From Halocatena salina (GTDB lineage: Archaea > Halobacteriota > Halobacteria > Halobacteriales > Haloarculaceae): DNA of 64,000 bases. A model generated the notes under the pieces. The model was not told the origin of the DNA, searched no databases, and saw nothing but the letters and a program-made list of their open reading frames with translations. Positions 5,747 through 21,498 of this stretch are shown here, one piece after another. The position numbers were made by a program, and so were the translations under genes. Where the stretch lies: assembly GCF_023115355.1 (NCBI RefSeq), contig NZ_CP096022.1, positions 186,001-250,000 on the forward strand, written 5' to 3'. Within the stretch, counting starts at the first letter, position 1; each line of letters opens with the position of its first letter.

Positions 5747-6514
5747 TCAGTTTCCAGTGAGCGCAGCCTGAATAGACTTTGTCGTACTCAACACCTGTCC
5801 AGTAATGTCTTCCTCAAGATATCGTCCATTGAGCTGGTCAGTCGGACCAGAGACACTGAGCGCAGCGGTTCGAGAGCCGTCTGTCGATGGGATCGGGGCT
5901 GCAACACTGACAATCCGTTCATAATATTCTTCTCTGCAGAACCCAATACCCTCGTCACGCACCCGGCGGAGTTCCGCTGAGAGTTTCGTGAGGCCGGTGA
6001 TGGTTGTATCTGTAAACGTTTCACGGTCGGCATTTTCCAATATTGTCTCGAGTTCATCGTTCGATAAGGACGCCATAAGGCACTTCCCTGAAGCAGTGGC
6101 GTGGAGTGGGAGTCGATCACCAGCTTGGAACGGCGGCATCCAGTCTGTGTTACCTTCGGTGACGTACACCGGTACAGCGTAATTCTCCTCTCTGATGAAC
6201 AGTGCTGTAGTCTCATCGGTCGCCGCCGCTAGGTTATCGATCGCTTTTTTCCCGTTCTGGTAGATGGATAGCGACCGTCGCACTTGTTTTCCACGCGATA
6301 AAAGTCGTAGCGACGCTTCGTACTGTCTTCCACGCTTAACCACGTACCCGTGCGCACGGAGCGTCGAAAGGTGATTGTGAACAACGCTTTTGGCAACGCC
6401 GGCGTGCTTGGATAGGGCTGTGACACCCATCGGATCGGACGCCTCGGTGAGCGCCTCCAGTATCGCGAGCGACGTTCCCGTTGCCTCGACCACGTACTGT
6501 GGCATATCACTCAT
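5747..6514 (-). CDS. IclR-family transcriptional regulator
   Basis: The product has 255 residues in the standard IclR layout. The N-terminal winged helix spans about residues 8-70 (TSLAILEALTEASDPMGVTA, then LSKHAGVAKSVVHNHLSTL as the recognition helix). The effector domain spans about 85-250 and contains the ATASGKCLMA segment and ISVSVAAPI-type core (RIVSVAAPIPSTDGSRTAAL). I chose ATG 6514 over an in-frame start 30 bases upstream because family homology begins at MSDMPQYVV. IclR proteins bind small carbon acids or sugars and control catabolic operons. This gene sits about 0.4 kb from a sugar-catabolism island, with the Zn dehydrogenase and ABC genes next, so it is the probable local regulator. 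The target operator was not identified. Confidence 0.88.
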   Translation of the reverse strand: MSDMPQYVVEATGTSLAILEALTEASDPMGVTALSKHAGVAKSVVHNHLSTLRAHGYVVKRGRQYEASLRLLSRGKQVRRSLSIYQNGKKAIDNLAAATDETTALFIREENYAVPVYVTEGNTDWMPPFQAGDRLPLHATASGKCLMASLSNDELETILENADRETFTDTTITGLTKLSAELRRVRDEGIGFCREEYYERIVSVAAPIPSTDGSRTAALSVSGPTDQLNGRYLEEDITGQVLSTTKSIQAALTGN

Positions 6515-6931
6515 TCTGAACTCGACTATGATATTAGTAGGCATAAATTTTGTTCATCACAGCAGAACAGATTCCTCGTGCCAACCGCTTCGTAACGTTT
6601 GGATCAATAAAATGAGCTTTCATACAAGAATAAATGCCATATATCTCCCGTTCGTAATAATATTGTTCTTCTCTGAAGAACGTATTGGGATCCATCAAGA
6701 CTGTATTCGGGCAAGAAAAGCACTGGTACACATCGTGATAGCGTTAGGAATCCGTTGTCAATGTCCTAGTCCTCGAATGCCACTTCGAAGAAGACGACGA
6801 TACTGACCGATCTATGCATACCGGGCATTCCGATCCCGAATGCGTTCGCCAGTACGGACGGGCACATTCTCACCGTCGAACGCCAGCGATAAATACACAG
6901 TCGGAGGGGGGTACCCGATAAGTGACCTAAC
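6515..6931. other. Gene-free spacer
   Basis: No supported gene. The minus strand near 6815-6890 reads AFDGENVPVRTGERIRDRNA before a stop, a short coding-like relic that I cannot assign. Confidence 0.35.
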
Positions 6932-7966
6932 TCACTCCGAATCGGGGACGACGACGTGTTTCAATCCATCAGCGTTCTCCATGCGCTCGAACGCCGTCGG
7001 TAAGTCCTCAAGACCGATCCGGTCGGTTACAAGCGACTCTGCCCCAATCCGTCTATGTTCCAGCAGCGTGACGGCTCGTTCAAAGTCCTCGGTCGTCAGC
7101 GAGTACGAACCACGATACCCAACTTCACCGAAGAAGATGTCATGAGGACGAACATCTATCGTCGCCTCTTGATCTGGGACGCCGAAGATGAGCGTCGAGC
7201 CGCCTTTTCCGGTTACCGCGTTGGCCTGTTCGATAGTCGGAGCGAGCCCGATCGCCTCAACGCCAACGTCGACCGGTCCGCCCGCAGCCACTTGGATGGC
7301 TGCGCTCGGATCGTCGCTGGCTTGGGGATTGACGACGGCGTCTGCACCGAAGTCTGCTGCGAGGTTCCGACGTTCCTCGTCGAGTTCCGAGACGACGACC
7401 GGAGCGGCACCGACGTTGCGGAACACTCGGAGTAGGAGCAGTCCGATCGGGCCAGCACCGATGATGGCGACACTGTCCCCCGGCTTATAATCGACTTGCT
7501 CAACACCGTGAAGACAGCAAGCCAGTGGTTCGGCTATCGCAGCCCGCTCAAACGACATCTCACCGATCGTTTCGACATTCGTCTGAGGAACCCGGACGTA
7601 CTCAGCGAACGCACCGTGGATGATGTTGTCGGCGGCCCCGCCGATGCTCGTGTTGTGCTCACAGAGATGCGTCTCGCCGCGTTTGCAGTACGTACAAGCG
7701 TTACAGGGGATGGTGGGGTTGATCGCGACCCGATCTCCCGATTCGTAACTCGTAACGTCCGTACCGACCTCGGCAACGGTTCCGGCACTCTCATGACCCA
7801 ACACTAGCGGCGTCTCCGCGGCGAACGAACCATGATACATGTGGTAGTCGGTCATACAGACGCCGCAAGCGCCAACTTGGACTAGCAACTCGTCATCGTT
7901 TGGGGTCGGTCGGTCACGTTCTTGTACTTCGACTGATCCGACATCCGTCAGTGTCGTTGCGCGCAT
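6932..7966 (-). CDS. Zinc-dependent alcohol/polyol dehydrogenase (MDR superfamily)
   Basis: The product has 344 residues from ATG 7966. Catalytic zinc ligands lie in CGVCMTDYH and LGHESAG. The four-Cys structural zinc loop is CNACTYCKRGETHLC. The NAD(P) Rossmann motif is GAGPIGLLLL, followed by VVSELDEERR where an acidic residue suggests NAD. The family oxidises secondary alcohols or polyols such as sorbitol, threonine or sugar lactols. The frame stays open another 46 codons upstream to 8104, and a TATA-like sequence near 8175 would fit a start at 8089, but homology starts at MRATTLTD, so the extension is doubtful. The gene is divergent from the ABC importer and probably co-regulated, acting on the imported sugar or a lactaldehyde-type product. 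Confidence 0.85.
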   Translation of the reverse strand: MRATTLTDVGSVEVQERDRPTPNDDELLVQVGACGVCMTDYHMYHGSFAAETPLVLGHESAGTVAEVGTDVTSYESGDRVAINPTIPCNACTYCKRGETHLCEHNTSIGGAADNIIHGAFAEYVRVPQTNVETIGEMSFERAAIAEPLACCLHGVEQVDYKPGDSVAIIGAGPIGLLLLRVFRNVGAAPVVVSELDEERRNLAADFGADAVVNPQASDDPSAAIQVAAGGPVDVGVEAIGLAPTIEQANAVTGKGGSTLIFGVPDQEATIDVRPHDIFFGEVGYRGSYSLTTEDFERAVTLLEHRRIGAESLVTDRIGLEDLPTAFERMENADGLKHVVVPDSE

Positions 7967-8292
7967 CGTTAGCGGCCCTCTATACGAGAGTTGGCTCTGG
8001 ACGTGATCCGACTCGGGTACTGTGTGCAGTGTCTCGTTCTCATAGTTTGTGGACTTCGTCACGGTCGACACCGTTGGTCGGTCATCCATGGCCGGTGTCG
8101 ACACGAGGACGTATGTGGAGGACGACCGTCGCCCCTGTGTTACTTCCTCTGAGTTACTGTTCTCGAACTCTCTATTAAAGGTTTGCCACCCTCATCGTCG
8201 ATTCATGAGCGAACTACCTCGAAGAGACGATAAAACGTGCTTTTTCGAGCGCTTCAATTCCCACATCATATACTATAAATGACCAATGACTA

Positions 8293-8330
8293 GATTTATT
8301 ATTGATGGTTTGTTTGATAGGGGACGAGGT
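8293..8330 (+). promoter_or_regulatory. Promoter and ribosome-binding region of the sugar ABC operon
   Basis: TTTATTA at 8295-8301 is centred about 41 bases before the ATG at 8339, which would give a leader of roughly 14 bases containing GACGAGGT (8323-8330), a plausible Shine-Dalgarno. Upstream, 8260-8280 is also AT-rich. This 0.37-kb divergent region between the dehydrogenase and the binding protein is the likeliest place for the IclR operator. Confidence 0.45.
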
Positions 8331-8338
8331 CAACAAAT

Positions 8339-9733
8339 ATGACCATCCAACGGAACAGGCGTGACTTTATCAAAACAACGAGCGTTGGACTGCTCGGCGG
8401 GCTTGCTGGCTGTACGCGAGGGGGCAGCTCGGACGACAGTGGGGGGGCCGAATCGGGCAACCCGTCCCTCTCGCTCAACGAATACGAGAACGCCGATATC
8501 GACTGGCAGCAGTTCGAAGGTTCGAGTATCAACATCGGAGCAGTCCAGCATCCCTGGGTGAGCGCTATCGAGCCTGTGGTTCCCGTCTTCGAGGAGCTGA
8601 CCGGCGTCGAAGTCAACTGGAACGTCCTGCCTGAACAGGAGTACCGGACCAAACGACTCACCGACGTCGGAACCGGTGCCGGTGAGTGGGACGTGTTCTT
8701 CGTCGATCAGGTCGTCAACCAGTTTCGCGAGGCCGGGTGGATCCAGCCGCTCGATCCGTACTTCGCCGACGACAGCATGTACGACGAGGACTGGTACGCG
8801 ATGGACGACCTCTTCGAGGCCACGCGATGGCAGGCCCACGGAGGCGGCTATAGCGACACGTGGACCGGTAGTCCAATCACCGTCGAGGTTCAGACGCAGT
8901 TCTATCGGACGGATCTCTACGAGGAACACGGACTGGAGGTCGCCGAAACGTTCGAGGAATTCCGCTCCAACGCCCGGACACTTCACGAGAAAGCCCCCGA
9001 CGTGATCGGTACCACCGGCCGCGGTCAGCAGGGCTATGGGATGAACATCTACGTCCTCAACACGTTCATTCGCGAGCACGGCGCCCAGTTGTGGGATGAC
9101 TACCCCGATAACTCGGGACTGGACTCCGAGGGTGCTCTCTCCGCAGCCGAGTGGTACGTCAACCTCCTGCAGGATTACGGTCCGGGAGGAGTGGCCAGCC
9201 AGACGTGGTCGGACGTGCTTTCGACGATGCAGTCGGGTCGTGCTGGTCACATCGTCTCCGACGCGAACCTGTTTTGGCCCAACTTGGTCGATCAGGAGAC
9301 ATCAGATGTGGCCGAGGACATCGGCGTTGCGAAGGTCCCGGCACCGGTTGATGGCGAGTTCGCACCTAACGCTTACGCGTGGCAGATCTCTATCTCGGAG
9401 AACGCCAGCAACCCCGAAGGAGCGTTCCTGTTCATGCTGTGGGCATCCTCGGAACCGACCAACACCTGGATCCACCTCAACAGCAGTGCTGCGTTCTCGG
9501 TGCGCCAGTCAGTCTGGGAAAACGAGGAGTTTCGGTCCCGGGTCGGCGAGAACTTTGCGCAGGTTACGCTCGAATCTCTCCAGGCGGCTGCGCCGGATCC
9601 GTTCGACAGCTACTATCCCCAGTGGGGACAGACGTACTCCGAGGAGCTCCAGACGGCCATCGGCGGCAATCAGGATGTAAAAGAGGCGATGACCAGCGCC
9701 GCGACAGTGGCCGAGGGGATCACTAGTGAGTAA
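8339..9733 (+). CDS. ABC sugar transporter, substrate-binding lipoprotein
   Basis: The product has 464 residues. The N-terminus carries a twin-arginine signal (NRRDFIKTT) and a lipobox-like LAGC at about residues 22-25, so it is exported folded through Tat and anchored outside the membrane. The mature part is a family 1 extracellular solute-binding protein: VFEELTGVEVNW near the N-terminus, DVFFVDQVVNQFREAGWIQP forming the hinge-side strand, and a C-terminal helix around SEELQTAIGGNQDVKEAMTS. It captures a sugar or oligosaccharide and delivers it to the permease pair 28 bases downstream. It is the first gene of a six-gene plus-strand operon ending with a kinase, which points to a deoxyhexose or related sugar as substrate. 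The exact ligand is unknown. Confidence 0.9.
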   Translation: MTIQRNRRDFIKTTSVGLLGGLAGCTRGGSSDDSGGAESGNPSLSLNEYENADIDWQQFEGSSINIGAVQHPWVSAIEPVVPVFEELTGVEVNWNVLPEQEYRTKRLTDVGTGAGEWDVFFVDQVVNQFREAGWIQPLDPYFADDSMYDEDWYAMDDLFEATRWQAHGGGYSDTWTGSPITVEVQTQFYRTDLYEEHGLEVAETFEEFRSNARTLHEKAPDVIGTTGRGQQGYGMNIYVLNTFIREHGAQLWDDYPDNSGLDSEGALSAAEWYVNLLQDYGPGGVASQTWSDVLSTMQSGRAGHIVSDANLFWPNLVDQETSDVAEDIGVAKVPAPVDGEFAPNAYAWQISISENASNPEGAFLFMLWASSEPTNTWIHLNSSAAFSVRQSVWENEEFRSRVGENFAQVTLESLQAAAPDPFDSYYPQWGQTYSEELQTAIGGNQDVKEAMTSAATVAEGITSE

Positions 9734-9760
9734 CGCGCATCGCGGTCAGAACACAACATC

Positions 9761-10696
9761 ATGAGCACACCGACACAGACGACGCCCCCGAACGGATCGG
9801 GACTGTCCAGATTTCGGGAGCTGTGGAATGACTACCTCCCGTACTGGTTCATGACGCCGATGGTGATAGTGATGTTGCTGATCACCATCTTCCCGGGGGC
9901 GTATGACCTGTATCTCAGTTTGGTCAAATACAATCTCGCCAATCCAGCGACGATCGGGCAGTTCAACGGACTAACCAACTTCGAGACGGCTTTCACCAGC
10001 GGCGGTGCGGTCAACTCGTTCACCCTCACGATACTATTCGTCGCTGGCGCGCTGGCCCTGGAAACCAGTATCGGGTTCGTGCTTGCGGCACTCGTAACCG
10101 GTGTCAGATCCAGTTGGATGAGGACATTCTACCGGATTGCCTTCATCCTTCCTATGGCGGTCGCACCCGTGTCGCTCGCGACGATAACTCGGATCATGCT
10201 GAACACCGAGATCGGCGTCATTCCCTACTTGATCGGGGATTTCACGCCGTTTACGGCGCCAAGTTTTCTCAGTGACGTTCCGCTATTGACGATTATCCTC
10301 GTCGATACGTGGAACTGGACGCCGTTCATGTTCATTATCTTCTACGCCGGCATGTCATCGGTGCCCGAGACGCTACTGGAAGCGTCTCGTGTCGACGGTG
10401 CACCGTTGTGGCGACGCTACCTTCACGTCATCATTCCATACATGAAGCCGGTGTTGTTCGTTGCCATCCTCATCCGATTGATCGACCTGTTCCGTACGTT
10501 CGGTCTGGTTTTCACCCTCACGCACGGCGGTCCCGGTACGGCAACGGAACTGGTAAGCATCAATATCTTCCAGACAGGGTTCACGTTCGTTGACTTGGGT
10601 GGGGCAGCCGCAGTCGCCGTCGTGTACCTCGTCGGTATCGTTGCACTGTGTAACGTCCTCATCATCAAGATCGGGTTCGAGGGGGTGTGGGACTGA
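9761..10696 (+). CDS. ABC sugar transporter permease (MalF/UgpA type)
   Basis: The product has 311 residues with about six transmembrane segments; the first is PYWFMTPMVIVMLLITIFPG. The cytoplasmic EAA loop that docks on the ATPase is visible as EASRVDGAPLWRRYLHVIIP at about residues 205-225, with the conserved Gly. It belongs to the carbohydrate uptake (CUT1) group. Its stop overlaps the start of the next permease by one base (TGATG), so the two are translationally coupled and would form the heterodimeric membrane channel. Confidence 0.9.
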   Translation: MSTPTQTTPPNGSGLSRFRELWNDYLPYWFMTPMVIVMLLITIFPGAYDLYLSLVKYNLANPATIGQFNGLTNFETAFTSGGAVNSFTLTILFVAGALALETSIGFVLAALVTGVRSSWMRTFYRIAFILPMAVAPVSLATITRIMLNTEIGVIPYLIGDFTPFTAPSFLSDVPLLTIILVDTWNWTPFMFIIFYAGMSSVPETLLEASRVDGAPLWRRYLHVIIPYMKPVLFVAILIRLIDLFRTFGLVFTLTHGGPGTATELVSINIFQTGFTFVDLGGAAAVAVVYLVGIVALCNVLIIKIGFEGVWD

Positions 10697-11571
10697 TGGC
10701 CAGCGTCGATGCGCCACGGAAGCCCGAACGCAGGCTCTCGAAAACCGGCCGCGAGCGTCTTGTCTCGGTCGGACGTCACGCCGTGTTGCTGATTTGGTCA
10801 TTCGTGGTCCTCTTTCCCCTGTACTGGATCGTCTCAATGTCACTCAAACCGCCGAGCGAGGCGATCACGCTGCCGCCCGACTGGATCTTTCTGCCGACGG
10901 TGTACAACTACATCCAGCTGTTCCAGCAGTCGAGTTTCATCATGGCGTTTGCCAACAGCGTCTTCATGGTGAGCGCCTCGGTGATACTCGTCTTGATCAT
11001 CGGCGTGCCCGCTGCGTACGTCCTCTCGCGATGGAAGGTGCCGAAACAGCGGGATGTACTCGTGTGGATCCTCTCTTCACGGATGCTCCCCCCGGTCGCC
11101 GTCGTTTTCCCGTTTTTCGTCATTTTCCGGAGGCTCAACCTCTTCGACACCCGAATCGGGATGATCTTCATGTACGTCACGATAAACCTCTCGCTGGTCG
11201 TATGGGTGATGAAGGCCTTTTTCGACGGCATCCCTGAGACCCTAGAAGAAGCAGCACACGTCGACGGTGCGACGCAGTTTCAGGCGTTCTGGAAGATCAT
11301 CCTGCCGGCAGCCAAGCCCGGAATCTTCTCAGTGGCCATCATCAGCTTCATTTTCGCCTGGATCGAGCTGCTGTTCTCGCTCGTACTGACGAACGACACT
11401 GCCGTGACGGTGACGATGCAGGTTTACCAGTTCATCGGCGTGCGCCAGATCGAATGGGGTATGCTCGCGGCGGCCACGACCGCGACCATTCTTCCCGTTC
11501 TGTTGTTAATCATTGCAGTCAACAAGTATCTCGCCGCCGGACTCAGCTTCGGCGTGGTGATCAAAGAATGA
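10696..11571 (+). CDS. ABC sugar transporter permease (MalG/UgpE type)
   Basis: The product has 291 residues and six predicted membrane segments, starting at VLLIWSFVVLFPLYWIVSMS. The EAA loop is EEAAHVDGATQFQAFWKIIL at about residues 185-205. I chose ATG 10696, which overlaps the TGA of the first permease, rather than an in-frame start 9 bases upstream. It is the second CUT1 permease and pairs with the preceding gene; the ATPase gene follows after 85 bases. Confidence 0.9.
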   Translation: MASVDAPRKPERRLSKTGRERLVSVGRHAVLLIWSFVVLFPLYWIVSMSLKPPSEAITLPPDWIFLPTVYNYIQLFQQSSFIMAFANSVFMVSASVILVLIIGVPAAYVLSRWKVPKQRDVLVWILSSRMLPPVAVVFPFFVIFRRLNLFDTRIGMIFMYVTINLSLVVWVMKAFFDGIPETLEEAAHVDGATQFQAFWKIILPAAKPGIFSVAIISFIFAWIELLFSLVLTNDTAVTVTMQVYQFIGVRQIEWGMLAAATTATILPVLLLIIAVNKYLAAGLSFGVVIKE

Positions 11572-11656
11572 GAAATCGACACCCACGATCGATCGTATCG
11601 CTACCGAATCACGCCCGTGTAGCGGGGCCAATCAGCTGCACCACGAAGACCGTATA

Positions 11657-12829
11657 ATGGCACGAATCGACATCGACGACGTGACCAAACGGTTCGGCGA
11701 CGGTGAAGACGGTATCGTTGCTGTCGACGACATTTCGCTGTACATCGACGACGGCGAATTCGTCGTCTTCGTCGGTCCTTCAGGGAGCGGAAAGTCAACG
11801 CTCCTGCGGACAGTCGCTGGACTGGAAGATCAGACCGAAGGCGACGTCGTAATCGGCGATACGATCGTCAACGAACTCGGTCCGCGTGCGCGGAATATCG
11901 CGATGGTGTTCCAGAACTACGCGCTGTACCCCAATATGACTGTTGAGGAGAATATGGCCTTTGGCCTCAAGATGTCGACGGACATGTTAGAAACAGAGAT
12001 AGAAAAGCGCGTCCACGAAACGGCAGAGACGATGGGCATCGAGAAGTTACTACACAGCACGCCCGGGGAGATGTCCGGCGGCCAGCAACAGCGAGTCGCC
12101 CTAGGCCGGGCGATCGTCCGTGATCCCAATGTCTTCCTCATGGACGAGCCACTCAGCAACCTCGACGCAAAACTCCGGACGGAGATGCGCACCGAAATCA
12201 ATCGGCTCCAGAACGACCTTAGCGTAACGACGCTGTATGTCACACATGACCAGACCGAGGCGATGACGATGGGCGACCGGTTGGTCGTTCTCAACCACGG
12301 CGAACTTCAACAGGTCGGGACGCCATTGGAGTGTTTCTACCGGCCATCGAACCGGTTCGTCGCCGGTTTCCTCGGCTCACCGTCGATGAATTTCTTCGAA
12401 GGACACGTCGAGGGTGGAACGCTCCGTGTGGACGGTTTCGACTACGATCTCACTGAGGAGATGCAGATTTCGGTCGGTGACCGGAACGACCTCCTCCTCG
12501 GGGCTCGACCCGAGGATATCGTTCTCCACGACGACGCGTCGTCGGCCCACGAATTTGAGGCGATCGTCGACGTGGTCGAACCCATGGGGAGTATCTCTTA
12601 TGTCTACCTACAAGCCAAGTCACAGGACCGCGATACGATGTTCATCGCTGAGACGGACGGACAGCGGCCCATAAACGAGGGAACGTCTCTCTACGTAGAG
12701 ATACCGGACGATGACGTGCACTTGTTCGATGCTGCTACTGGCGAGACGATCCACCACCGATCGCTCGATTCGGAAACGGAGGAGACGATGGAACAGCGGT
12801 TCCAGACTGCCAGTACGACCACGGAGTGA
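11657..12829 (+). CDS. ABC sugar transporter ATPase (MalK/UgpC type)
   Basis: The product has 390 residues. Walker A is GPSGSGKST (about residue 40), the Q-loop is VFQNYALYPNMTV, the signature is MSGGQQQRVALGRAI, and Walker B is VFLMDEPLSNLDAKLR followed by the switch His in YVTHDQTEAM. The C-terminal 150 residues are the TOBE/MalK regulatory domain (RPEDIVL). It powers import by the two upstream permeases. An acidic serine/threonine-rich tail of about 20 residues follows the TOBE domain. Such ATPases are often shared between CUT1 importers, but gene order here shows it belongs with this one. Confidence 0.92.
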   Translation: MARIDIDDVTKRFGDGEDGIVAVDDISLYIDDGEFVVFVGPSGSGKSTLLRTVAGLEDQTEGDVVIGDTIVNELGPRARNIAMVFQNYALYPNMTVEENMAFGLKMSTDMLETEIEKRVHETAETMGIEKLLHSTPGEMSGGQQQRVALGRAIVRDPNVFLMDEPLSNLDAKLRTEMRTEINRLQNDLSVTTLYVTHDQTEAMTMGDRLVVLNHGELQQVGTPLECFYRPSNRFVAGFLGSPSMNFFEGHVEGGTLRVDGFDYDLTEEMQISVGDRNDLLLGARPEDIVLHDDASSAHEFEAIVDVVEPMGSISYVYLQAKSQDRDTMFIAETDGQRPINEGTSLYVEIPDDDVHLFDAATGETIHHRSLDSETEETMEQRFQTASTTTE

Positions 12830-12895
12830 GTACCTGACTCTGTAGATCAGTTCACAACTTATACGACGAATCCACATCAACACCGAAATCCACCA

Positions 12896-13549
12896 ATGGC
12901 AGAAAACGACATTGAACACTACGAGACGAGACGAGCCATCGCAGAGTATGGTCGTAATCTCTTGGAAGACGATCTCACGACCGGTACGGGAGGCAACTTG
13001 AGTGTCCGTCTTGACGAAGATCACGTTGCAATCAGCCCGTCGGGAATCCCATACGCAGAGGTCGCTCCAGAGGATGTACTGGTCGTGCGAACGGACGGGA
13101 CTGTCATCAACGGGGATCACGACCCGTCGACGGAGCTTCCGATGCATTTGGCTATCTACCAGAAGCGAGACGACGTCGGCAGCGTGGTCCACACTCACTC
13201 GCCGTACGCGACGACGTTCGCGTCGCTCGGCGAGGCGATACCGGCCTCACATTACCTCATTTCGTTCACTGGATCCGAAGTACCCGTGGCGGAGTACCGC
13301 ACCCACGCGACTGAAGAGCTAGGTGAGGCGGCCGTCGACGCCCTTGGGGAGTCGTTCAACGCGACGCTGCTTCGCAACCATGGAGTCTTGACTGCCGACG
13401 ACTCACTCAAGGATGCCTACACCGTCGCGCTGATGGTAGAGTACTGTGCCCGCATCCACTACCAAGCGCGTGCGATCGGCGAGCCGGAGATCCTTCCAGA
13501 CGAAGAGGTCGACCGGCTGAGCAGCAAACTCGACAGCTATGGGCAGTAA
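12896..13549 (+). CDS. Class II aldolase (L-fuculose/L-rhamnulose-phosphate aldolase type)
   Basis: The product has 217 residues, the usual length for the AraD/FucA family. Seen motifs are TGTGGNLSVR and SPSGIPY (phosphate-binding loops), STELPMHLAIY (catalytic Glu), VVHTHSPYATT (two zinc-ligand His) and LLRNHGVLT (third zinc His). The enzyme uses zinc to split a ketose 1-phosphate into dihydroxyacetone phosphate and an aldehyde such as L-lactaldehyde. It follows the importer ATPase by 66 bases and precedes the rhamnulokinase-like gene by 16 bases, so kinase and aldolase very likely act in sequence. Which 6-deoxyketose it prefers, or whether it takes a pentulose phosphate, cannot be told from sequence alone. 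Confidence 0.85.
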   Translation: MAENDIEHYETRRAIAEYGRNLLEDDLTTGTGGNLSVRLDEDHVAISPSGIPYAEVAPEDVLVVRTDGTVINGDHDPSTELPMHLAIYQKRDDVGSVVHTHSPYATTFASLGEAIPASHYLISFTGSEVPVAEYRTHATEELGEAAVDALGESFNATLLRNHGVLTADDSLKDAYTVALMVEYCARIHYQARAIGEPEILPDEEVDRLSSKLDSYGQ

Positions 13550-13565
13550 GTCCCGTGACTGATCA

Positions 13566-15026
13566 ATGAACCATGTCGCCATCGATCTTGGAGCCAGCAG
13601 CGGAACCGTGTTTCTCGGGAAGATCACCGCCTCGTCGTTCACTGTCAAGGAGGTCTACCGATTCGATAACCGCCCTGTCGAGCGCGACGGACGGTACGTC
13701 TGGGACCTCGACGAAATCGTCGACCACATTGGGGTCGGTATCGAAGCCGCCACAGACCATACTGACGGCATCGATACAGTAGGGATCGACACGTGGGGAT
13801 TGGATTTTGGACTCCTGGCTGATGGGGAGCCCTTGCGCGATCCGATCTCGTATCGAGATCCCCAGTCGACGGCAACCCGTAAGGAACTGCTTGAGACCGT
13901 CGGGAAGCGACGACTGTTCGAGGCCAGCGGCATCACCCACTGGAACACACCCAACACGTTGTGGCAGCTCCATACCATCGCCCAGCGAACACCCGATCTC
14001 CTGGAACGCGCTGATAGGCTGCTCATGATGCCACAGCTACTCTCCGTGCTGTTAGGCGGTCGGCCGGTCGGCGAAGTGACGATCGCCTCGACGACACAGA
14101 TGGTCGATCCGGACGATCGTGATTGGGCGACGGATCTACTGGCAGAGCTCTCACTGCCAACCGACCTGCTCTCGTCGCTGGCTGAACCCGGCGAGTCGTT
14201 GGGAGCAGTCGACGAGCGATTCGCGCCGGATCCAGAGGCACCACCAGAGCTTCTCACACCGGCGAGCCACGACACCGCAGCGGCCGTCGCCGGACTCCCG
14301 CTGTCCGACGACGCGGCGTTTCTTAATACGGGCTCGTGGTTCATCATCGGTCTCGAACGCAACGAGCCGGTTCGGACGGACGTCGCGTTCGAGCATTCGT
14401 TATCGAACGAACTCGGGCCGAACGGTACCGTTCGGCTGCTGAAGAACGTCAACGGGTTCTTTCTGCTGGAGGAGTGCCGAACGGCGTGGCGCGAGGCCGA
14501 CGAACCGACGGCGTACGACCAGCTTCTGTCGGCAGCCCAGCAAGCACCACCGCGGAAGGCGCTCATCGATCCGGACGCCACGGCCTTCTCGATCGAAGGA
14601 TCGATGCCGGATCAGATCAGAGCGTACTGTCGACGGACGGATCAACGGGTCCCGACCGTTCAAGGAGGCGTCGTCCGCTGTCTACTGGATAGTCTCGTGA
14701 CCAAAACAGCACTGGTACTGGATCGACTGGCCACAGCCGTCGGCGAGACGCCGAACCGAGTCGTCCTCGGGGGTGGTGGCGCCCGCAACGATCTGTTCTG
14801 CCAGCTCCTAGCCGACGCCATCGACCGACCAGTGATGACCGGTCCAGTGGAGGCGAGCGCCATCGGCAACCTCCTGACCCAGGCCGTCGCGGTCGACACC
14901 TTCCCCAATCTCGAAGCCGGTCGTCGATCACTCGAAGCGTCGTTTCAGATGACGACCTACGAACCCACCGGTACTGGCGATTGGGACTGTATGAAAGAAC
15001 GGATGCGAGAGCTCTCAGTGAACTGA
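13566..15026 (+). CDS. rhaB: FGGY-family kinase, rhamnulokinase type
   Basis: The product has 486 residues, matching rhamnulokinase. The N-terminal ATPase-fold phosphate loop is AIDLGASSGTVFLG. GIDTWGLDFGLLADGEPL and PISYRDPQST are hallmarks of the RhaB branch rather than of xylulokinase or glycerol kinase. The second ATP-binding half carries GSWFIIGLE and VVLGGGGARNDLFCQLLAD. It would phosphorylate L-rhamnulose or a related 6-deoxyketose at O1 with ATP, feeding the aldolase gene 16 bases upstream. It is the last gene of the plus-strand importer operon; an SDR gene lies 4 bases beyond on the opposite strand. Gene symbol is given on family resemblance and the substrate needs testing. Confidence 0.8.
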   Translation: MNHVAIDLGASSGTVFLGKITASSFTVKEVYRFDNRPVERDGRYVWDLDEIVDHIGVGIEAATDHTDGIDTVGIDTWGLDFGLLADGEPLRDPISYRDPQSTATRKELLETVGKRRLFEASGITHWNTPNTLWQLHTIAQRTPDLLERADRLLMMPQLLSVLLGGRPVGEVTIASTTQMVDPDDRDWATDLLAELSLPTDLLSSLAEPGESLGAVDERFAPDPEAPPELLTPASHDTAAAVAGLPLSDDAAFLNTGSWFIIGLERNEPVRTDVAFEHSLSNELGPNGTVRLLKNVNGFFLLEECRTAWREADEPTAYDQLLSAAQQAPPRKALIDPDATAFSIEGSMPDQIRAYCRRTDQRVPTVQGGVVRCLLDSLVTKTALVLDRLATAVGETPNRVVLGGGGARNDLFCQLLADAIDRPVMTGPVEASAIGNLLTQAVAVDTFPNLEAGRRSLEASFQMTTYEPTGTGDWDCMKERMRELSVN

Positions 15027-15030
15027 CCGG

Positions 15031-15804
15031 CTACCGGGACGTGTATCCGCCGTCCATCACGACCGTTGAGCCAGTCATATAGGAGGACGCCTCCGAGGCG
15101 AGATAGACGACTAGTTCCCGCAGTTCGTCCGGTCTACCAAGCCGGCCGATCGGCGTGTTCTGGAGCCAACTCTTTTCCATTTCGGGATTCTCCTCAAGCA
15201 CTTCATCGACGAGTTCCGTCCGCATGTAGCCCGGCGCGATAGCATTGACCCGGACGCCGCGGTCGGCCCACTCGACGGCTAGCGAACTCGTGAGCATCGA
15301 GACGCCGGCTTTCGTCGTGTTGTAACTAGCCTGTTTCTGTGGGACGTTGACGTCGAAACCGGACATCGACGAGACGTTGATGATACGTCCCCCTCTTCGT
15401 TCTAACATCTGTTTACCCACATGTTTAGCACAGAGAAAGACACCGTCGAGATTAACTGCAAGGACTCGCTGCCAAGAGTCGAGTGACGTCTCCTCGGCCG
15501 GCGAGTTCTCGACGATACCAGCGTTATTAACGAGCACGTCGACCGGTCCCAATCGGTCGGTCACGTGTTCGACCATCGCCTCGACCGATGGTTCGTCAGT
15601 CACGTCGACTTCGACGGCGATCGCTTCGGCTTCGCCATCGAGGGCGTCCGCCGTTTCCGACGCTTTCGACGCGTTCATATCGGCGATGGCTACGTCGGCC
15701 CCCATCTCGGCGAGGCCTGTCGCCATTTCCTTTCCAAGACCTTGTGCCCCACCGGTTACGATGGCTGTCTCTCCTTCGAGGGAAAAACGCTCCAGTACGC
15801 TCAT
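15031..15804 (-). CDS. Short-chain dehydrogenase/reductase (sugar dehydrogenase candidate)
   Basis: The product is a 257-residue classical SDR. The cofactor loop is TGGAQGLGKEMA, with IADMN downstream, where Asp suggests NAD preference. NNAG, the catalytic Ser region (INVSSMSGF), and YNTTK (Tyr-x3-Lys) are all intact. The C-terminus ends GSTVVMDGGYTSR, as in the gluconate/3-oxoacyl reductase-like group. It is transcribed against the kinase operon and divergently from the dehydratase gene 105 bases away. In non-phosphorylating sugar pathways such an enzyme oxidises the sugar (or a 2-keto-3-deoxy acid) ahead of or after the dehydratase, which would suit this position. The substrate is inferred only from context. 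Confidence 0.82.
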   Translation of the reverse strand: MSVLERFSLEGETAIVTGGAQGLGKEMATGLAEMGADVAIADMNASKASETADALDGEAEAIAVEVDVTDEPSVEAMVEHVTDRLGPVDVLVNNAGIVENSPAEETSLDSWQRVLAVNLDGVFLCAKHVGKQMLERRGGRIINVSSMSGFDVNVPQKQASYNTTKAGVSMLTSSLAVEWADRGVRVNAIAPGYMRTELVDEVLEENPEMEKSWLQNTPIGRLGRPDELRELVVYLASEASSYMTGSTVVMDGGYTSR

Positions 15805-15908
15805 AGTACGGTTCCATGGGCGAGTCCTTCGAAGTTAAATGTATGTGACTTCATCTCCCTCCTCTCGGATCCTGTCTATTCAAGTGTGTGCTGTCCATTG
15901 TCACGGGC

Positions 15909-17060
15909 ATGCAAATCACAAACTACGAACTGTTCGCTGTGCCTCCGCGGTGGTTGCTACTCAAGCTAGAGACCGATGAGGGAATCGGTGGGTGGGGAGA
16001 GCCGATCGTTCAGGGACGACTCGAAACGGTTCGAACGGCAGTCTCCGAACTGATTGAGGGGTATCTTCTGGGAACGGACCCACTTCGAACGGAGTACCAC
16101 TGGCGAAAGCTCTACCAGAGCGGCTACTTCCGGGGGGGACCGATACTGATGAGCGCACTGGCGGGAATCGATCACGCTCTCTGGGATATCAAAGGACGAT
16201 GGTACGACGCACCGGTCTACGAACTGCTGGGCGGTCACGTCCGCGACCGAATGCTCGTCTATCAGTGGCTTGCAAGCGGGGTACCGGACGCTATCGCCGA
16301 ATCCGCTCGAAAGGACTATGAGCGAGGGTACCGCGCCTTCAAACTCAACTGCGTTCAAGAGTTCCGGCCAATAGAGACGGCCGCTGCTGTCGATCGTGCT
16401 GTCGAACGGGTAGCTGCAGTTCGGGACGCTATCGGCAACGAGGCGTTTCTCGGCATCGACTTTCATGGCCGCGTTTCGAAACCGATGGCCAGTGAGCTCG
16501 TGCGACGGTTCGAACCGTATGATCTGATGTTCATCGACCAGCCCCTTCTCCCCGAACACGCTGATGGGTTCGACACCATCAACGACTGGACGACTACCCC
16601 CATCGCCACTGGTGAGCGGTTCTCCTCCCGATACGAGTACAAGCAGCTGTTCGTCGACGACGCTGTCTCCGTTATCCAGCCCGATGTTACTCACGTCGGC
16701 GGCATCAGCGAACTTCGAAAGATCGCTTCAATGGCCGAATCATTCGACGTGGCCGTTATCCCACACTGTCCCCTCGGACCGATCGCCTTTGCCGCTAGCG
16801 TACAGGTCGGATTCTGTTCGCAGAACGTCGTCATGCAAGAGCAAGACCTCGGCCTACATAACCCTGATTCGAGCCAGCAGTTGGCACTGCTTGAGGATCC
16901 CGAGACGTTCACGTTCGACGACGGCTACGTCGAACGGCCGACCGGCCCCGGGCTCGGTATCCAGATCGATGAGAGCCACGTCCGCGAACTGGCCCAAACA
17001 GAGGTCAATTGGCACAACCCAGTCTGGCACCACGAGGACGGCAGCGTTGCCGAGTGGTGA
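15909..17060 (+). CDS. Enolase-superfamily sugar-acid dehydratase (D-galactonate dehydratase-like)
   Basis: The product has 383 residues and aligns from end to end with DgoD-type dehydratases: DFHGRVSKPMA (metal Asp and catalytic His, about D184/H186), TGERFSSRYEYK (metal Glu, about E236), QPDVTHVGGISE, PHCPLGPIAFAAS (second catalytic His, about H286) and the terminal WRHEDxSVAEW-like ending (VWHHEDGSVAEW). The family removes water from an aldonate to give a 2-keto-3-deoxy acid using Mg. One core residue differs: the second metal ligand, Glu in FIEEP of the Escherichia coli enzyme, is Asp here (FIDQP). Start ATG 15909 was chosen because homology begins at MQITNYEL. The gene is divergent from the SDR and followed by a Zn dehydrogenase. 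Confidence 0.85.
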   Translation: MQITNYELFAVPPRWLLLKLETDEGIGGWGEPIVQGRLETVRTAVSELIEGYLLGTDPLRTEYHWRKLYQSGYFRGGPILMSALAGIDHALWDIKGRWYDAPVYELLGGHVRDRMLVYQWLASGVPDAIAESARKDYERGYRAFKLNCVQEFRPIETAAAVDRAVERVAAVRDAIGNEAFLGIDFHGRVSKPMASELVRRFEPYDLMFIDQPLLPEHADGFDTINDWTTTPIATGERFSSRYEYKQLFVDDAVSVIQPDVTHVGGISELRKIASMAESFDVAVIPHCPLGPIAFAASVQVGFCSQNVVMQEQDLGLHNPDSSQQLALLEDPETFTFDDGYVERPTGPGLGIQIDESHVRELAQTEVNWHNPVWHHEDGSVAEW

Positions 17061-17108
17061 TTTACCGCTCCGACGCTGTCAGATCGGTGTTCGGCAGCGA
17101 CGACCCGC

Positions 17109-17117
17109 ATATTTTAG
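17109..17117 (+). promoter_or_regulatory. TATA element of the second Zn dehydrogenase
   Basis: ATATTTTAG is centred about 29 bases before ATG 17142, consistent with a leaderless transcript separate from the dehydratase gene. Confidence 0.5.
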
Positions 17118-17141
17118 TAGCCGATCACCGTGGCTGTACGT

Positions 17142-18173
17142 ATGCGAACCGCCGTGCTAGTCGAACCCACTGAATTCCAACTGCAGGACCGTGAACGTCC
17201 CGAGCCCGGGCCAGACGATGTACTCGTAGCAATTCGTGACGTTGGAATCTGTGGCTCGGATATCCATTACTATGAACACGGTCGTATCGGGGATTACGTC
17301 GTTGACGAACCCCTCGTCCTCGGTCACGAGAGTGCCGGCGAGGTCGTCGAAACCGGCGAGAACGTTACTGGGATCACACCCGGTAACCGAGTCACACTGG
17401 AACCGGGCGTTCCATGTCGACGCTGTCCACACTGCAAGCGGGGTGACTATCACCTCTGTGAAGACGTGGTGTTCATGGCGACGCCGCCACATGACGGTTC
17501 CTTCGTCGAATACGTTACTTGGCCCGCCGACTTCGCCTACGAACTTCCCGAGACCGTCTCCAGTATCGAAGGTGCACTGTGTGAACCGCTTTCAGTCGGC
17601 ATTCACGCCTGTCGGCGTGGTGACGTCGGAGCCGGCGATACCGTCCTGGTCACCGGCGGAGGTCCGATCGGGCTGATGATCGTTGAGGCCGCTCGTGCAG
17701 CGGGGGCGACGAACGTGATCGTCACCGATGTCGTTCCAGGGAAACTCGGGTTCGCTCGTGAACGTGGCGTTGATCTGGCGGTGAACGTTACTGAAACCGA
17801 TCTAGAAGCAGCTATCAACGAGTATACGGACGGCTTGGGAGCCGACGTAGTGATCGAGGCCTCTGGGGCCCCACCGTCTATTCGGTCGACCCTAGACGTG
17901 GTTCGGCGTGGTGGAACGGTGGTTCTCGTCGGACTTGCCAGCGAAGCGACCGTACCTATCGACGTGCTAGAGCTCATCGACAACGAGATTGACGTGCACG
18001 GCTCATTCCGCTACAAGAACACCTACGACGTTGCGATCGATCTCCTGACCGACGGTGCCGTCGATGTCGAAGGAATTGTCGACTTTCAGTTACCTCTCGA
18101 TGCGATCGACGATGCCTTCCAACGGGCAATCGATCCCGACGTCGTCAAAGGGATGATCACTATCGGTAAGTGA
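17142..18173 (+). CDS. Zinc-dependent sorbitol/xylitol dehydrogenase-like enzyme
   Basis: The product has 343 residues. VGICGSDIHYYEHGRIGDYV and LGHESAGEVV carry catalytic-zinc residues, as in sorbitol and xylitol dehydrogenases. CRRCPHCKRGDYHLC is the structural zinc lobe. The cofactor loop is VTGGGPIGLMIVE, followed by VIVTDVVPGKLG. It would oxidise a polyol or sugar C2 hydroxyl with NAD. It is closer to the sorbitol-dehydrogenase subgroup than the Zn dehydrogenase at 6932-7966, so the island has two different MDR enzymes. I chose ATG 17142 (MRTAVLVEP) because a TATA element lies 29 bases upstream; a start 12 bases earlier is in frame. Confidence 0.87.
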   Translation: MRTAVLVEPTEFQLQDRERPEPGPDDVLVAIRDVGICGSDIHYYEHGRIGDYVVDEPLVLGHESAGEVVETGENVTGITPGNRVTLEPGVPCRRCPHCKRGDYHLCEDVVFMATPPHDGSFVEYVTWPADFAYELPETVSSIEGALCEPLSVGIHACRRGDVGAGDTVLVTGGGPIGLMIVEAARAAGATNVIVTDVVPGKLGFARERGVDLAVNVTETDLEAAINEYTDGLGADVVIEASGAPPSIRSTLDVVRRGGTVVLVGLASEATVPIDVLELIDNEIDVHGSFRYKNTYDVAIDLLTDGAVDVEGIVDFQLPLDAIDDAFQRAIDPDVVKGMITIGK

Positions 18174-18274
18174 CCCAGTGATCGATGCCGATTCCGCGTT
18201 CCGGATCGTACGATGTTCGGATGAATTTTGCCACCATCAGGCACGTTTTACTCAGGAAATCGCACCTTACAAGT

Positions 18275-19486
18275 ATGGAGAACGATCGCATTAGTCAGTA
18301 CCGTGGGAGGCTACTGGCTATGCTCCGAGTACAATACCCAGACGTTCTTGCCAAACGTGGCTTCCAGCTCATCCATCCAATGACCGGGGAGCAATATTCT
18401 AACGACCGTCGACACCTCATTGCCGCCTGTCGAGCAGTCTCGAACTTCGCACTCGGTACCGCTATCGATGGACCCGATTGGTGTCGTGACGCGGTTAAAC
18501 ACGGTATCCACTTCCTTCGAGAGGCCCATCGCTCTCCTGACGGCGGCTACCATCTCCTTGTTGATAGCGACGGGAAGCCGATCGATCGGACACGTTCGGC
18601 GTACGGACACGCCTTCGTCCTACTTGCGTACTCCCGAGCAGCAACCATCGGAATCGATGGGGCCACGTCGGATCTTCGGCGGACACACCAGGTGATCGAG
18701 GAACGATTACGGGATAACGAAGGATTGCTTCGAAGTGACTGTGATCCCGACTGGTCCGAATTAGAGGCCTACCGTGGACAAAACGCTAACATGCATGCTT
18801 GTGAGGCGTACATCGCTGCATACGAGGCGACCGGTGAGGATCGGTTCCTTGACCGCGCACGCCACATTGCCAAGACGATTACTGTCGATCTTGCAGAAGA
18901 GACCGATGGGCTCCTGTGGGAACACTACTCCGCAGAATGGGATCACGACTTCGAGTACAACGCAGATGAGCCGCGCCACCAGTTTCAACCTCCCGGTTAT
19001 CAACCCGGACATCACGCGGAATGGGCGAAGCTTCTCGGCCTGCTCGACCGCTACAGCGACGACACAGTAGACGGAGACTGGCAGTACGCTCGAGCAGTGG
19101 AACTGTTCGACGCTGCTGTCGAAATGGGCTGGGCCGAAGACGGGTTCGTATACACTATCAACAGGGATGGTAAGACGATCGTTCCGGACCGTTATGGGTG
19201 GGCACTTGCAGAGGCACTGGGTGCTGCGGCGACGCTCAAGGAACGCGCTGATGCCTGTGGGGTCGCGGACGAACGCGACAGGTTTCGCAACTGGGAACAG
19301 CGATTCCTCGAAGAAGTTCCTACATACCGGGGTCCTGCTGGTGTCTGGTACGAGAAGCGGCTCTCACCCGAGAATGGCGGCATACCAGTCGCACCGGACG
19401 CGCCGGGCGTTGAACCGGACTACCATCCCGTGAGCGCGTACTATGAAGAGCATCGGTCGACAAGGGAGGTACATCGGCGTGCGTGA
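18275..19486 (+). CDS. AGE-family aldose-ketose isomerase/epimerase
   Basis: The product has 403 residues with the (alpha/alpha)6-barrel signature of N-acylglucosamine 2-epimerase, mannose isomerase and YihS relatives. Visible motifs are RSAYGHAFVLLAYSRA at about residue 107, QNANMHACEAYIAAYEATGE (catalytic-region His), PGYQPGHHAEWAKLLGLLDR (two adjacent His plus Glu) and DRYGWALAEALGAA. The length matches mannose/YihS isomerases. The enzymes interconvert C1/C2 of free or modified sugars. I chose ATG 18275; an in-frame start 90 bases upstream lacks homology. In this island, which has a ketose kinase and aldolase but no classical rhamnose or fucose isomerase, this gene is the best candidate for the aldose-to-ketose step. 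That role is an inference. Confidence 0.8.
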   Translation: MENDRISQYRGRLLAMLRVQYPDVLAKRGFQLIHPMTGEQYSNDRRHLIAACRAVSNFALGTAIDGPDWCRDAVKHGIHFLREAHRSPDGGYHLLVDSDGKPIDRTRSAYGHAFVLLAYSRAATIGIDGATSDLRRTHQVIEERLRDNEGLLRSDCDPDWSELEAYRGQNANMHACEAYIAAYEATGEDRFLDRARHIAKTITVDLAEETDGLLWEHYSAEWDHDFEYNADEPRHQFQPPGYQPGHHAEWAKLLGLLDRYSDDTVDGDWQYARAVELFDAAVEMGWAEDGFVYTINRDGKTIVPDRYGWALAEALGAAATLKERADACGVADERDRFRNWEQRFLEEVPTYRGPAGVWYEKRLSPENGGIPVAPDAPGVEPDYHPVSAYYEEHRSTREVHRRA

Positions 19487-19726
19487 CGAATCAGGATTCA
19501 GATGGGACGTAGAAACGACTCAGAAATCAGAACAGCCTCCCAAGAGCGGACGCACTGTTACAAACGAAATGAACCCGGCCAGACAACGCCCCGCGCATGG
19601 TCGGCGAATCGGACTGCGAGGATGCCCTAGCCAGCACCACCGATATGAATCGACTCTTCGCGATTGGATACAACAAGGGATGACTGGTACACTGTCCTCG
19701 CTATCATCCACACGACATAGACACCC

Positions 19727-20611
19727 ATGACACTCGAAACGATAGCTGTGACAGGCGGAAACGGTAAGATCGGCTCTGCGATCCTCGAACACGTTGACGA
19801 GCACGGTTACGAAACGGTAAACATCTCGCGGGGGAAACAACACGAGGAGATTTCGGATACGTACGTGACGACGGACCTGCTGGACGCTGGCGAGACGTAC
19901 GGCGCCCTCGCGAAGACAGAGGCCGACGCGGTTATCCACATGGGGACGATCCCTGACCCGTACAGCAATCCCGATTTCCGGGTCTACGAGAGTAACGTGA
20001 TGTCTGGTGCGCACGTCCTCGAAGCGGCAGACGCACTTGGGTTGGAGTCAGTCTGTCTGGCCTCCAGTATCAACGCGATTGGCAGTGAGCACCAAGAGCG
20101 CCCGGCAGACGTACGCTCCATTCCGCTCGACGAGACCCACCCACGAACACCTGACGATCCGTACGGTATGGCCAAACACGCTGTAGAGGTGACTGCGGAC
20201 GGGTTTGGCCGTCGTCCCTCGACCGACCTGACGATAGCTTCCCTACGGTACCCATGGGTGATGACCGATGCGGAGATGCGCGAATACGTTTTCGAGCCGG
20301 ACCGTTCGCTTGAGGCGCTCCACGACGTCCATCCGGCCACCGGACGGGAAGTACTATTCTCGTACCTTGCGATAGAGGATGCGGCGTCCATCGCTCGAAA
20401 AGCTGTCGAGGCCGATTTCAATGGTCACGAGCCGTTCTGGGCGGTCGCGGGCGACACCACGGCCGACGCGTCGACTCCCGACCTCATATCGGAGTTCTAC
20501 CCGGAAGCTGACGTACAGGAAATGCCGTCGGGCTATGAGACGATCGTCGACCTCTCGAAGGCCGAGAAGCTGCTTGGATGGAAGCCACAGTGGTCGTGGC
20601 GGGACCTGTAG
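19727..20611 (+). CDS. Extended SDR, NAD-dependent sugar epimerase/dehydrogenase
   Basis: The product has 294 residues. The N-terminal TGGNGKIGSAI is the extended-SDR GxxGxxG loop, followed by strand end NISRG. ASSINAIGS carries the catalytic Ser and YGMAK the Tyr-x3-Lys pair. The C-terminal KAEKLLGWKPQWSWRDL is typical of nucleotide-sugar epimerases and of uronate/hexuronic acid dehydrogenase-like proteins. The short C-terminal domain fits free-sugar dehydrogenases (uronate dehydrogenase group) at least as well as UDP-sugar epimerases. It closes the sugar island, 240 bases after the AGE gene, and may oxidise the aldose to a lactone for the dehydratase branch. Confidence 0.78.
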   Translation: MTLETIAVTGGNGKIGSAILEHVDEHGYETVNISRGKQHEEISDTYVTTDLLDAGETYGALAKTEADAVIHMGTIPDPYSNPDFRVYESNVMSGAHVLEAADALGLESVCLASSINAIGSEHQERPADVRSIPLDETHPRTPDDPYGMAKHAVEVTADGFGRRPSTDLTIASLRYPWVMTDAEMREYVFEPDRSLEALHDVHPATGREVLFSYLAIEDAASIARKAVEADFNGHEPFWAVAGDTTADASTPDLISEFYPEADVQEMPSGYETIVDLSKAEKLLGWKPQWSWRDL

Positions 20612-21236: not shown

Positions 21237-21498
21237 CTTAGTCAAGTCTATCGTCATGGGAACTTCAGTTCCTTGCTGAAAAGAGTGTGTGCAAGTAGCG
21301 TACGAACGAGGAGACTGCCGATCAGGCCAGTCATATCGGTAACAGTAACCGTCTGAGAACTGGCTTCAGTGGTGGGTCGTTGGTTCATATTGGCCTCTGT
21401 AACCATACTGTGATGGGAAATACAGTTTCATTAAATCACGTCTAAACATGTTCAGGCTATACCGAATGATTGATACAATCTGCTGCCTAGTCAGTGGC

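Follow-up and report, generated by a model that had tools for sequence, protein, structure and literature searches.

A sugar island of Halocatena salina is probably orthologous to the mannitol/sorbitol cluster of Haloarcula hispanica and carries a core with a distinct dehydratase clade

The sugar island of Halocatena salina is very probably (about 0.93, judging from sequence comparison) orthologous to the mannitol/sorbitol (msc) cluster of Haloarcula hispanica and not a deoxysugar island. Gene for gene, it is colinear with the locus on H. hispanica pHH400. To this identity we add a conserved core module and a downstream cassette; the complete account has, in our judgement, an even chance of being correct, and all substrates and fluxes of the island are ones that we infer. 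The window analyzed is a 64,000-nucleotide stretch of contig NZ_CP096022.1, and the island begins with the IclR regulator gene at 5747-6544, further left than had been noted. All gene classes named in the original prediction (CUT1 importer, kinase, aldolase, 2 Zn dehydrogenases, SDR, extended SDR, and DgoD-like protein) were found intact and in place, while an AGE-family isomerase and a mannonate dehydratase remnant had not been named. The island thus comprises the following features:

5747..6544, minus strand: IclR-family regulator, MscR counterpart (Pfam IclR_C 3.9e-36; 58% identical to MscR of H. hispanica; equivalent position in the cluster)
6932..7966, minus strand: Zn-dependent (PDH/MDR family) mannitol dehydrogenase ZnDH1, MscM counterpart (78% to MscM versus 36% to MscS)
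8339..9733, plus strand: CUT1 substrate-binding protein, MscE counterpart (PF01547 1.8e-34; 70% to MscE)
9761..10696, plus strand: CUT1 permease 1, MscF (PF00528; 70% to H. hispanica)
10687..11571, plus strand: CUT1 permease 2, MscG (PF00528; 76% to H. hispanica)
11657..12829, plus strand: CUT1 ATPase, MscK (PF00005 1.2e-33; 78% to H. hispanica)
12896..13549, plus strand: class II aldolase, FucA type (PF00596 2.7e-55; structures DrdA 6BTD and Streptococcus pneumoniae FucA 4C24)
13566..15026, plus strand: FGGY ketose kinase, rhamnulokinase/fuculokinase type (PF02782 1e-30; TIGR02627 367 bits; structures FucK 4C23 and RhaB 2CGJ)
15031..15804, minus strand: classical SDR (PF13561 5.9e-70; near polyol dehydrogenase 3AWD and galactitol dehydrogenase 2WDZ; YxxxK and Gly motifs)
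about 15909..17060, plus strand: enolase-superfamily acid-sugar dehydratase, DQP clade (NF010624 572.8 bits; tree and alignment)
17130..18173, plus strand: Zn-dependent sorbitol dehydrogenase ZnDH2, MscS counterpart (81% to MscS; sorbitol residues as in human SorDH 1PL6)
about 18275..19486, plus strand: AGE-family isomerase (PF07221 2.5e-76; structures 3GT5 and 5X32; NF051846 196 bits)
19576..19686, plus strand: mannonate dehydratase gene remnant (UxuA family), last 37 codons (73% to the Natrinema salinisoli protein, E 1e-11)
19727..20611, plus strand: extended SDR (PF01370 5.2e-21; 76% to N. salinisoli)

The true start of ZnDH1 probably lies 46 codons inside the listed ORF, and the CUT1 ATPase motif reads GARPED, not GIRPED.

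In the msc cluster of H. hispanica (mscSKGFEMR), the roles of MscM and MscS have been demonstrated by deletion mutants and kinetics (PMC11519228). The importer, both dehydrogenases, and the IclR regulator of H. salina are orthologous to and colinear with this cluster: the 4 importer proteins share 70%, 70%, 76%, and 78% identity with MscE, MscF, MscG, and MscK in unchanged order, and the IclR gene, for which an activator role is predicted, adjoins the mscM counterpart as in H. hispanica. The original prediction had placed the 2 Zn dehydrogenases in an oxidative (aldonate) branch. Instead, ZnDH1 and ZnDH2 are orthologues of the characterized mannitol and sorbitol dehydrogenases, with 78% and 81% identity to their own counterparts against 35-36% crosswise; neither contains the strict PDH motif, both match the relaxed one, and ZnDH2 keeps the sorbitol-contact residues listed for the H. 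hispanica system (PMC11519228) when aligned with human SorDH 1PL6. By orthology to the genes tested in H. hispanica, mannitol and sorbitol would be taken up by the CUT1 importer and oxidized to fructose by ZnDH1 and ZnDH2, respectively, under the control of an IclR-type activator.

This orthology makes it very improbable that the island serves L-rhamnose or L-fucose through a kinase-aldolase route combined with an oxidative route, the deoxysugar framing with which the prediction had started. The kinase and aldolase are indeed closest to RhaB/FucK and FucA. However, neither L-rhamnose isomerase (RhaA, PF06134) nor fucose isomerase was matched in the host genome (the PF06134 control was positive in E. 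coli and B. subtilis), and profile scores place the dehydratase closer to galactonate than to rhamnonate dehydratases. We rejected the deoxysugar island as the main reading on the isomerase absence and the msc orthology.

Polyol operons of the Pseudomonas fluorescens/Rhodobacter sphaeroides type combine a CUT1 importer and polyol dehydrogenases with an FGGY kinase for other polyols, and in these bacterial operons xylulokinase feeds the pentose phosphate pathway. The same 3 elements occur in the island; unlike in those operons, its kinase stands with a class II aldolase, which suggests ketose-1-phosphate cleavage. The P. fluorescens polyol transporter has been compared in the msc study (PMC11519228).

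Across the block from the IclR gene to ZnDH2, gene order and strand are unchanged in 16 Haloarcula genomes, 2 Natrinema genomes, Halobellus limi, and further families, and the genes of the block are therefore grouped far above chance. This search, which the original prediction had proposed, agrees with its observation that phosphorylating and oxidative enzymes stand side by side: gene-order comparison puts them in one conserved unit. The H. salina island groups with the Natrinema/Halobellus copies and not with those of Haloarcula (AU p 3e-60). Compared with N. salinisoli, 9 island genes are under strong purifying selection (dN 0.08-0.25, dS 0.8-3).

Within this unit, the FucA-type aldolase, FGGY kinase, SDR, and enolase-superfamily dehydratase form a core found in several haloarchaeal families. 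The msc locus of H. hispanica carries the 4 genes as well, although the msc paper does not name them and accounts for growth on mannitol and sorbitol without them (PMC11519228). The latter speaks for a plain msc cluster that handles mannitol and sorbitol only, with the 4 genes belonging to a neighboring sugar operon on the same plasmid segment that responds to unrelated conditions, as does the separate divergent promoter region of the SDR and dehydratase genes (the SDR gene is convergent to the kinase gene and divergent from the dehydratase gene). We nevertheless consider this arrangement unlikely, because the 4 genes accompany SorDH in several families and remain linked at loci with a rearranged transporter (L170, L171, L168/L169, and L172), and because the aldolase gene lies 66 bases past the ATPase gene and the kinase gene 16 bases past the aldolase gene. 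Most likely, the island serves at least two substrates. To this extent the proposal of two sugars under one regulon holds, but its single regulon was not borne out: the footprints of the 2 divergent promoter regions (importer and SDR/dehydratase) had nothing in common except TATA-like boxes, and a shared MscR motif was dropped as a candidate because the footprint comparison gave none.

Alignment of the aldolase with 6BTD and 4C24 showed that STEL78, HTH99, and NHG161, which comprise the Zn ligands and the catalytic Glu, are kept. As its substrate we infer a ketose-1-phosphate. It scores under the equivalog cut-offs (PRK06833, 245.7 of 264; NF053831, 212.7 of 300), and the kinase, AGE protein, and SDR likewise fall beneath the NCBIfam equivalog cut-offs, the kinase with 367 bits against 528 for rhamnulokinase TIGR02627. 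The classical SDR is probably NAD-dependent. Since this is the only class II aldolase of the host genome, and since RhaA and fucose isomerase were not matched there, it is plausible that the kinase substrate derives from polyol oxidation. The core would then handle at least one further polyol, which would be oxidized to its ketose; the kinase would phosphorylate this ketose at C1, and the aldolase would split the product into DHAP plus an aldehyde. A FucA-like aldolase would fit 3R,4R ketoses, for example ribitol-derived D-ribulose or galactitol-derived L-tagatose; for haloarchaeal galactitol use, no report of such a route was found in the open-access literature. FucA-family class II aldolases that convert a ketose-1-phosphate to DHAP are also known from the ribulose-1-phosphate pathway of haloarchaea (PMC9700705) and, in bacteria, as DrdA and FucA, but the island aldolase, with its 212.7 against the NF053831 cut-off of 300, neighbors a kinase instead of nucleoside-route enzymes.

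We also considered the core kinase as a stand-in for ketohexokinase (KHK) and rejected it, because the kinase is equally present in KHK-plus and KHK-minus genomes and because H. hispanica has the kinase gene, yet deletion of khk nearly abolishes its growth on mannitol and sorbitol. The kinase-aldolase pair is thus no fructose disposal route in that organism. A scan of the named genomes with a single kinase sequence gave no matches; an alignment-based scan returned chiefly distant bacterial relatives but did name Haloarcula loci.

The dehydratase scores 572.8 bits against the DgoD family NF010624, well over the cut-off of 311, which would be expected of an ordinary D-galactonate dehydratase. 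With the SDR acting as galactose dehydrogenase, it would give the core a DeLey-Doudoroff branch acting on galactose or galactitol; the genes next to a DgoD homologue in both Haloarcula sinaiiensis and Haloferax alexandrinus do encode an SDR and a beta-galactosidase, and those of Haloferax include KDGal kinase and aldolase genes. Several observations make this branch rather doubtful. The island enzymes form a clade separate from other DgoD homologues (support 100/100), and their second metal ligand is Asp in 16/16 members as opposed to Glu in 10/10 other DgoD homologues. The DgoD ligands Asp, Glu, and Glu, which we take to be D183, E209, and E235 of E. coli, correspond to D191, D217, and E243 in the island enzyme (numbering from 15888, where the ORF starts), where Asp217 and Gln218 begin the DQP motif, so that the Asp-Glu-Glu set is broken. 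E17A, E42Q, and W249Y are likewise specific to the clade. Moreover, the island SDR is just 31-35% identical to SDRs adjoining other DgoD homologues, and no galactosidase is present nearby. The catalytic His pair is kept (DFHGR and PHCPLGP motifs), and the DgoD proteins of haloarchaeal galactose clusters share the fold family, these motifs, and 49-58% identity, but have EEP where every island member has DQP. Because Asp occupies the second metal ligand throughout the clade, the name galactonate dehydratase is unsafe; the DQP enzyme would turn a related aldonate into a 2-keto-3-deoxy acid.

Downstream of the core, 2 alternative cassettes occur: ketohexokinase with an aldolase (KHK+FBA), which follows SorDH in Halobellus limi and at L164-L166, or an AGE isomerase with a mannonate dehydratase and an extended SDR, which takes the equivalent position in Natrinema and lies 3' of the ATPase gene at L171/L202 and in N. 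versiforme. Wherever the latter cassette is whole, the extended SDR adjoins UxuA and AGE. H. salina has the AGE and extended SDR genes, which H. hispanica lacks at this place, and its mannonate dehydratase gene is deleted; the remnant aligns with positions 277-313 of the N. salinisoli enzyme (314 residues), whose intact gene occupies that spot in Natrinema. The loss of the UxuA gene beside AGE in H. salina itself counts against a fructose-to-KDG role of the cassette. The AGE and extended SDR genes have diverged from N. salinisoli more than the core (dS near saturation), which indicates a history of their own. From its sequence, the AGE protein is probably of the D-mannose/D-fructose isomerase type (it matches the AGE domain family PF07221 at 2.5e-76 and reaches 196 bits against 600 for D-mannose isomerase NF051846). 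The extended SDR is a probable aldose 1-dehydrogenase; a sequence search against solved structures returned only weak NDP-sugar epimerase matches, and its single-sequence fold had a pLDDT of 33.

Among the 30 island genomes, 4/4 with a close AGE had no KHK orthologue, whereas KHK was present in 24/26 without one (Fisher 5.5e-4, with thresholds picked post hoc and related genomes; p = 0.076 when collapsed to genus states). Two genomes, G305 and G383, lack a close version of either cassette. The fructose set of KHK, 1-PFK, and class I FBA, which lies outside the msc cluster itself, is incomplete in H. salina: KHK, which H. hispanica needs, gave no match at E 1e-10 or 1e-8, while 1-PFK is present in a PTS-like gene neighborhood and class I FBA at 59%. 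In place of the ketohexokinase route, AGE, mannonate dehydratase, and extended SDR would take fructose through mannose and mannonolactone/mannonate to KDG, which would enter the semi-phosphorylative Entner-Doudoroff route. The dehydratase step in H. salina would have to be supplied by a homologue at another place on this contig, and one with 73% identity to the Natrinema enzyme is found at C4:86265. No report of a fructose-mannose-mannonate route was found in the open-access literature. There is a real, if less than even, possibility that the cassette is instead a mannose module (mannose to mannonate to KDG, with AGE either filling or depleting the mannose pool) that has no link to polyol-derived fructose. 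Mannose has been proposed to be oxidized to mannonate in natronoarchaea, whose mannan clusters hold mannonate dehydratases and a putative UDP-glucose 4-epimerase gene (PMC10963439), and in both Halobacterium noricense and genome G263 the 3 genes stand beside a CUT1 importer of a different kind. Yet a polyol importer/dehydrogenase unit encloses the cassette in both Natrinema and N. versiforme, and the cassette substitutes for KHK-FBA in both position and genome content. We tentatively suggest that these are polyol islands with interchangeable fructose-disposal cassettes, the AGE/mannonate dehydratase/extended SDR one being an undescribed route, and with a core whose DQP dehydratase may have a new activity on a polyol-derived acid.

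Altogether, these results place a previously unexplained sugar island within a known system and remove a misleading deoxysugar label. They also expose 3 testable gaps: the four-gene core that is unnamed in the work on H. hispanica, a genetically tractable organism; a dehydratase clade that databases label galactonate dehydratase despite a metal ligand changed throughout; and a possible second fructose route in haloarchaea that have no ketohexokinase.

Every gene named in the original prediction (the importer, the kinase-aldolase pair, the dehydrogenases, SDRs and dehydratase) was found in Pfam and NCBIfam scans of the window, which lies inside a 365-kb contig of the 4.0-Mb host genome (G000:C4:186001-250000). 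Missing from that gene list were an AGE-family isomerase and a mannonate dehydratase remnant. The features located are:

5747, IclR regulator, start of the unit
11657-12829, CUT1 ATPase (MSGGQ replaces LSGGQ, and GARPED the CUT1 motif G[IV]RPE[DH])
about 18275-19486, AGE-family isomerase
19576-19686, mannonate dehydratase remnant of 37 codons, between AGE and the extended SDR (eSDR)
21448-22179, right of the island, HTH-10 (bacterio-opsin activator type) regulator; one Haloarcula genome (L038) has a 44% relative close to its island
22410-23935, minus strand, directly right of the island, two overlapping frames resembling parts of one broken transposase, one part matching DDE_Tnp_1

The block IclR-ZnDH1-SBP-permease-permease-ATPase-aldolase-kinase-SDR-dehydratase-ZnDH2 is colinear, with matching orientation, across 16 Haloarcula genomes, including Haloarcula hispanica ATCC 33960 (plasmid pHH400). 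Judged by sequence and gene order, the window locus is the counterpart of the H. hispanica msc cluster. According to the available text of Ortjohann and Schonheit (PMC11519228), mutants and kinetics identify MscEFGK as a mannitol/sorbitol importer and show that MscM and MscS oxidize mannitol and sorbitol to fructose, and MscR is an activator. ZnDH1 shares 78% identity with MscM and ZnDH2 81% with MscS (35-36% crosswise); the SBP matches MscE at 70% and the regulator matches MscR at 58%, and the sorbitol-contact residues are conserved in ZnDH2. The window genes would have mannitol/sorbitol roles by orthology. No common regulator motif was found in the island's two divergent promoter regions.

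The msc genes named in the available text are mscSKGFEMR only; its locus numbers, combined with the annotated record, place 4 genes between mscK and mscS, which are not discussed in that text, where the words rhamnulokinase and galactonate are also absent (PMC11519228). As in the window, they are the aldolase, kinase, SDR and dehydratase. This core appears to be no passive neighbor, because its genes persist through rearrangements: aldolase to SorDH (ZnDH2) is unbroken in loci L170 and L171, where the transporter genes lie elsewhere, the dehydratase is flipped in L168/L169, and in L172 the core and SorDH genes are all shuffled, yet present. The nearest solved structures are S. pneumoniae FucK and E. 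coli RhaB for the kinase, and S. pneumoniae FucA and 6BTD, named DrdA in PMC6079011, for the aldolase. Both proteins score under the equivalog cut-offs of the rhamnulokinase, fuculose-phosphate aldolase and ribulose-1-phosphate aldolase models, a search of the host genome for RhaA or fucose isomerase gave no match, and this aldolase is the host's only class II one. Because the stereochemistry of FucA-type aldolases suits a 3R,4R ketose-1-phosphate, we favor such a substrate, which may derive, for example, from ribitol or galactitol. Elsewhere, the island's kinase and aldolase have relatives beside frames that, by eye, resemble four-carbon acid-sugar kinase (OtnK-like) and PdxA/DenD-like proteins (L042, 6812-11414; L174, 1925-12887), a different acid-sugar setting from the island. 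In L173 (7391-13275), an SDR separates 2 closely spaced FGGY kinases of the island kinase's family, which match that kinase at 52% and 41%.

A tree of 26 dehydratase homologues resolved two fully supported clades. The 16-member clade comes almost entirely from polyol islands like the window's, the remainder adjoining polyol-dehydrogenase-type genes, and the 10-member clade includes homologues beside beta-galactosidase and KDGal kinase/aldolase genes; as an exception in the reverse direction, the dehydratase in the L172 island belongs to the second clade. Positions 217-218 (numbered from the ORF start at 15888) are Asp-Gln in 16/16 of the first clade (hence DQP clade), whereas the second has Glu at 217 in 10/10 and at 218 in 9/10. 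The spacing from D191 and E243 marks position 217 as the second metal ligand, which we take to be E209 of E. coli DgoD; E17A, E42Q and W249Y are also specific to the 16-member clade. Since the DQP clade is separate and its second metal ligand changed, the database name galactonate dehydratase is unsafe for it, although the window protein scores far above that family's cut-off.

The host shares its family with Haloarcula. In a ten-protein tree, however, the window island groups with Natrinema and Halobellus, apart from Haloarcula; in this quick tree analysis, the topology uniting window and Haloarcula was rejected (AU p 3e-60), and the kinase is absent from six congeners of the host. Horizontal spread of the island between families is the simplest reading. 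Divergence from Natrinema is greater for AGE and eSDR than for the core genes, an indication that these two have their own history.

Downstream of SorDH, or of a ZnDH1 paralogue after SorDH, Halobellus limi and three relatives (L129, L164-L166) carry ketohexokinase (KHK) and class I fructose-bisphosphate aldolase, and Natrinema carries AGE, mannonate dehydratase and eSDR; this trio follows the ATPase in L171/L202 and N. versiforme. The intact Natrinema mannonate dehydratase gene occupies the exact position of the window remnant, which aligns at 73% identity (E 1e-11) with residues 277-313 of the protein from Natrinema salinisoli. The host island has no local mannonate dehydratase; the host has homologues at C4:86265, which matches the Natrinema enzyme at 73%, and at C4:60668 (51%). 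On the same contig, a second mannonate dehydratase locus (L199 8239-14204, about 86-92 kb of C4) has TRAP-transporter-like, SDR and Zn dehydrogenase frames (the last 50% to ZnDH2). Another host locus (L177, 2681-6258) has a 1-phosphofructokinase in an apparent PTS fructose gene group with IIA- and IIC-like frames and a DeoR/GlpR-like regulator, without KHK. Among 30 island genomes, a close AGE (at least 63%) occurs in 4, with a KHK orthologue in 0/4 (the sole match in one, G263, is 29% within a 737-residue frame), and 24/26 of those without close AGE have a KHK orthologue at at least 43%; Fisher's test of this exclusion gave 5.5e-4 over genomes and 0.076 over genus states, with both thresholds set after the data were seen. 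The nearest structures to the window AGE are 3GT5 and 5X32. Oxidation of mannose via mannonate to KDG has been proposed in mannan-using natronoarchaea (PMC10963439). The AGE cassette may convert fructose to mannose, mannonate and KDG; if so, it would be an alternative to KHK.
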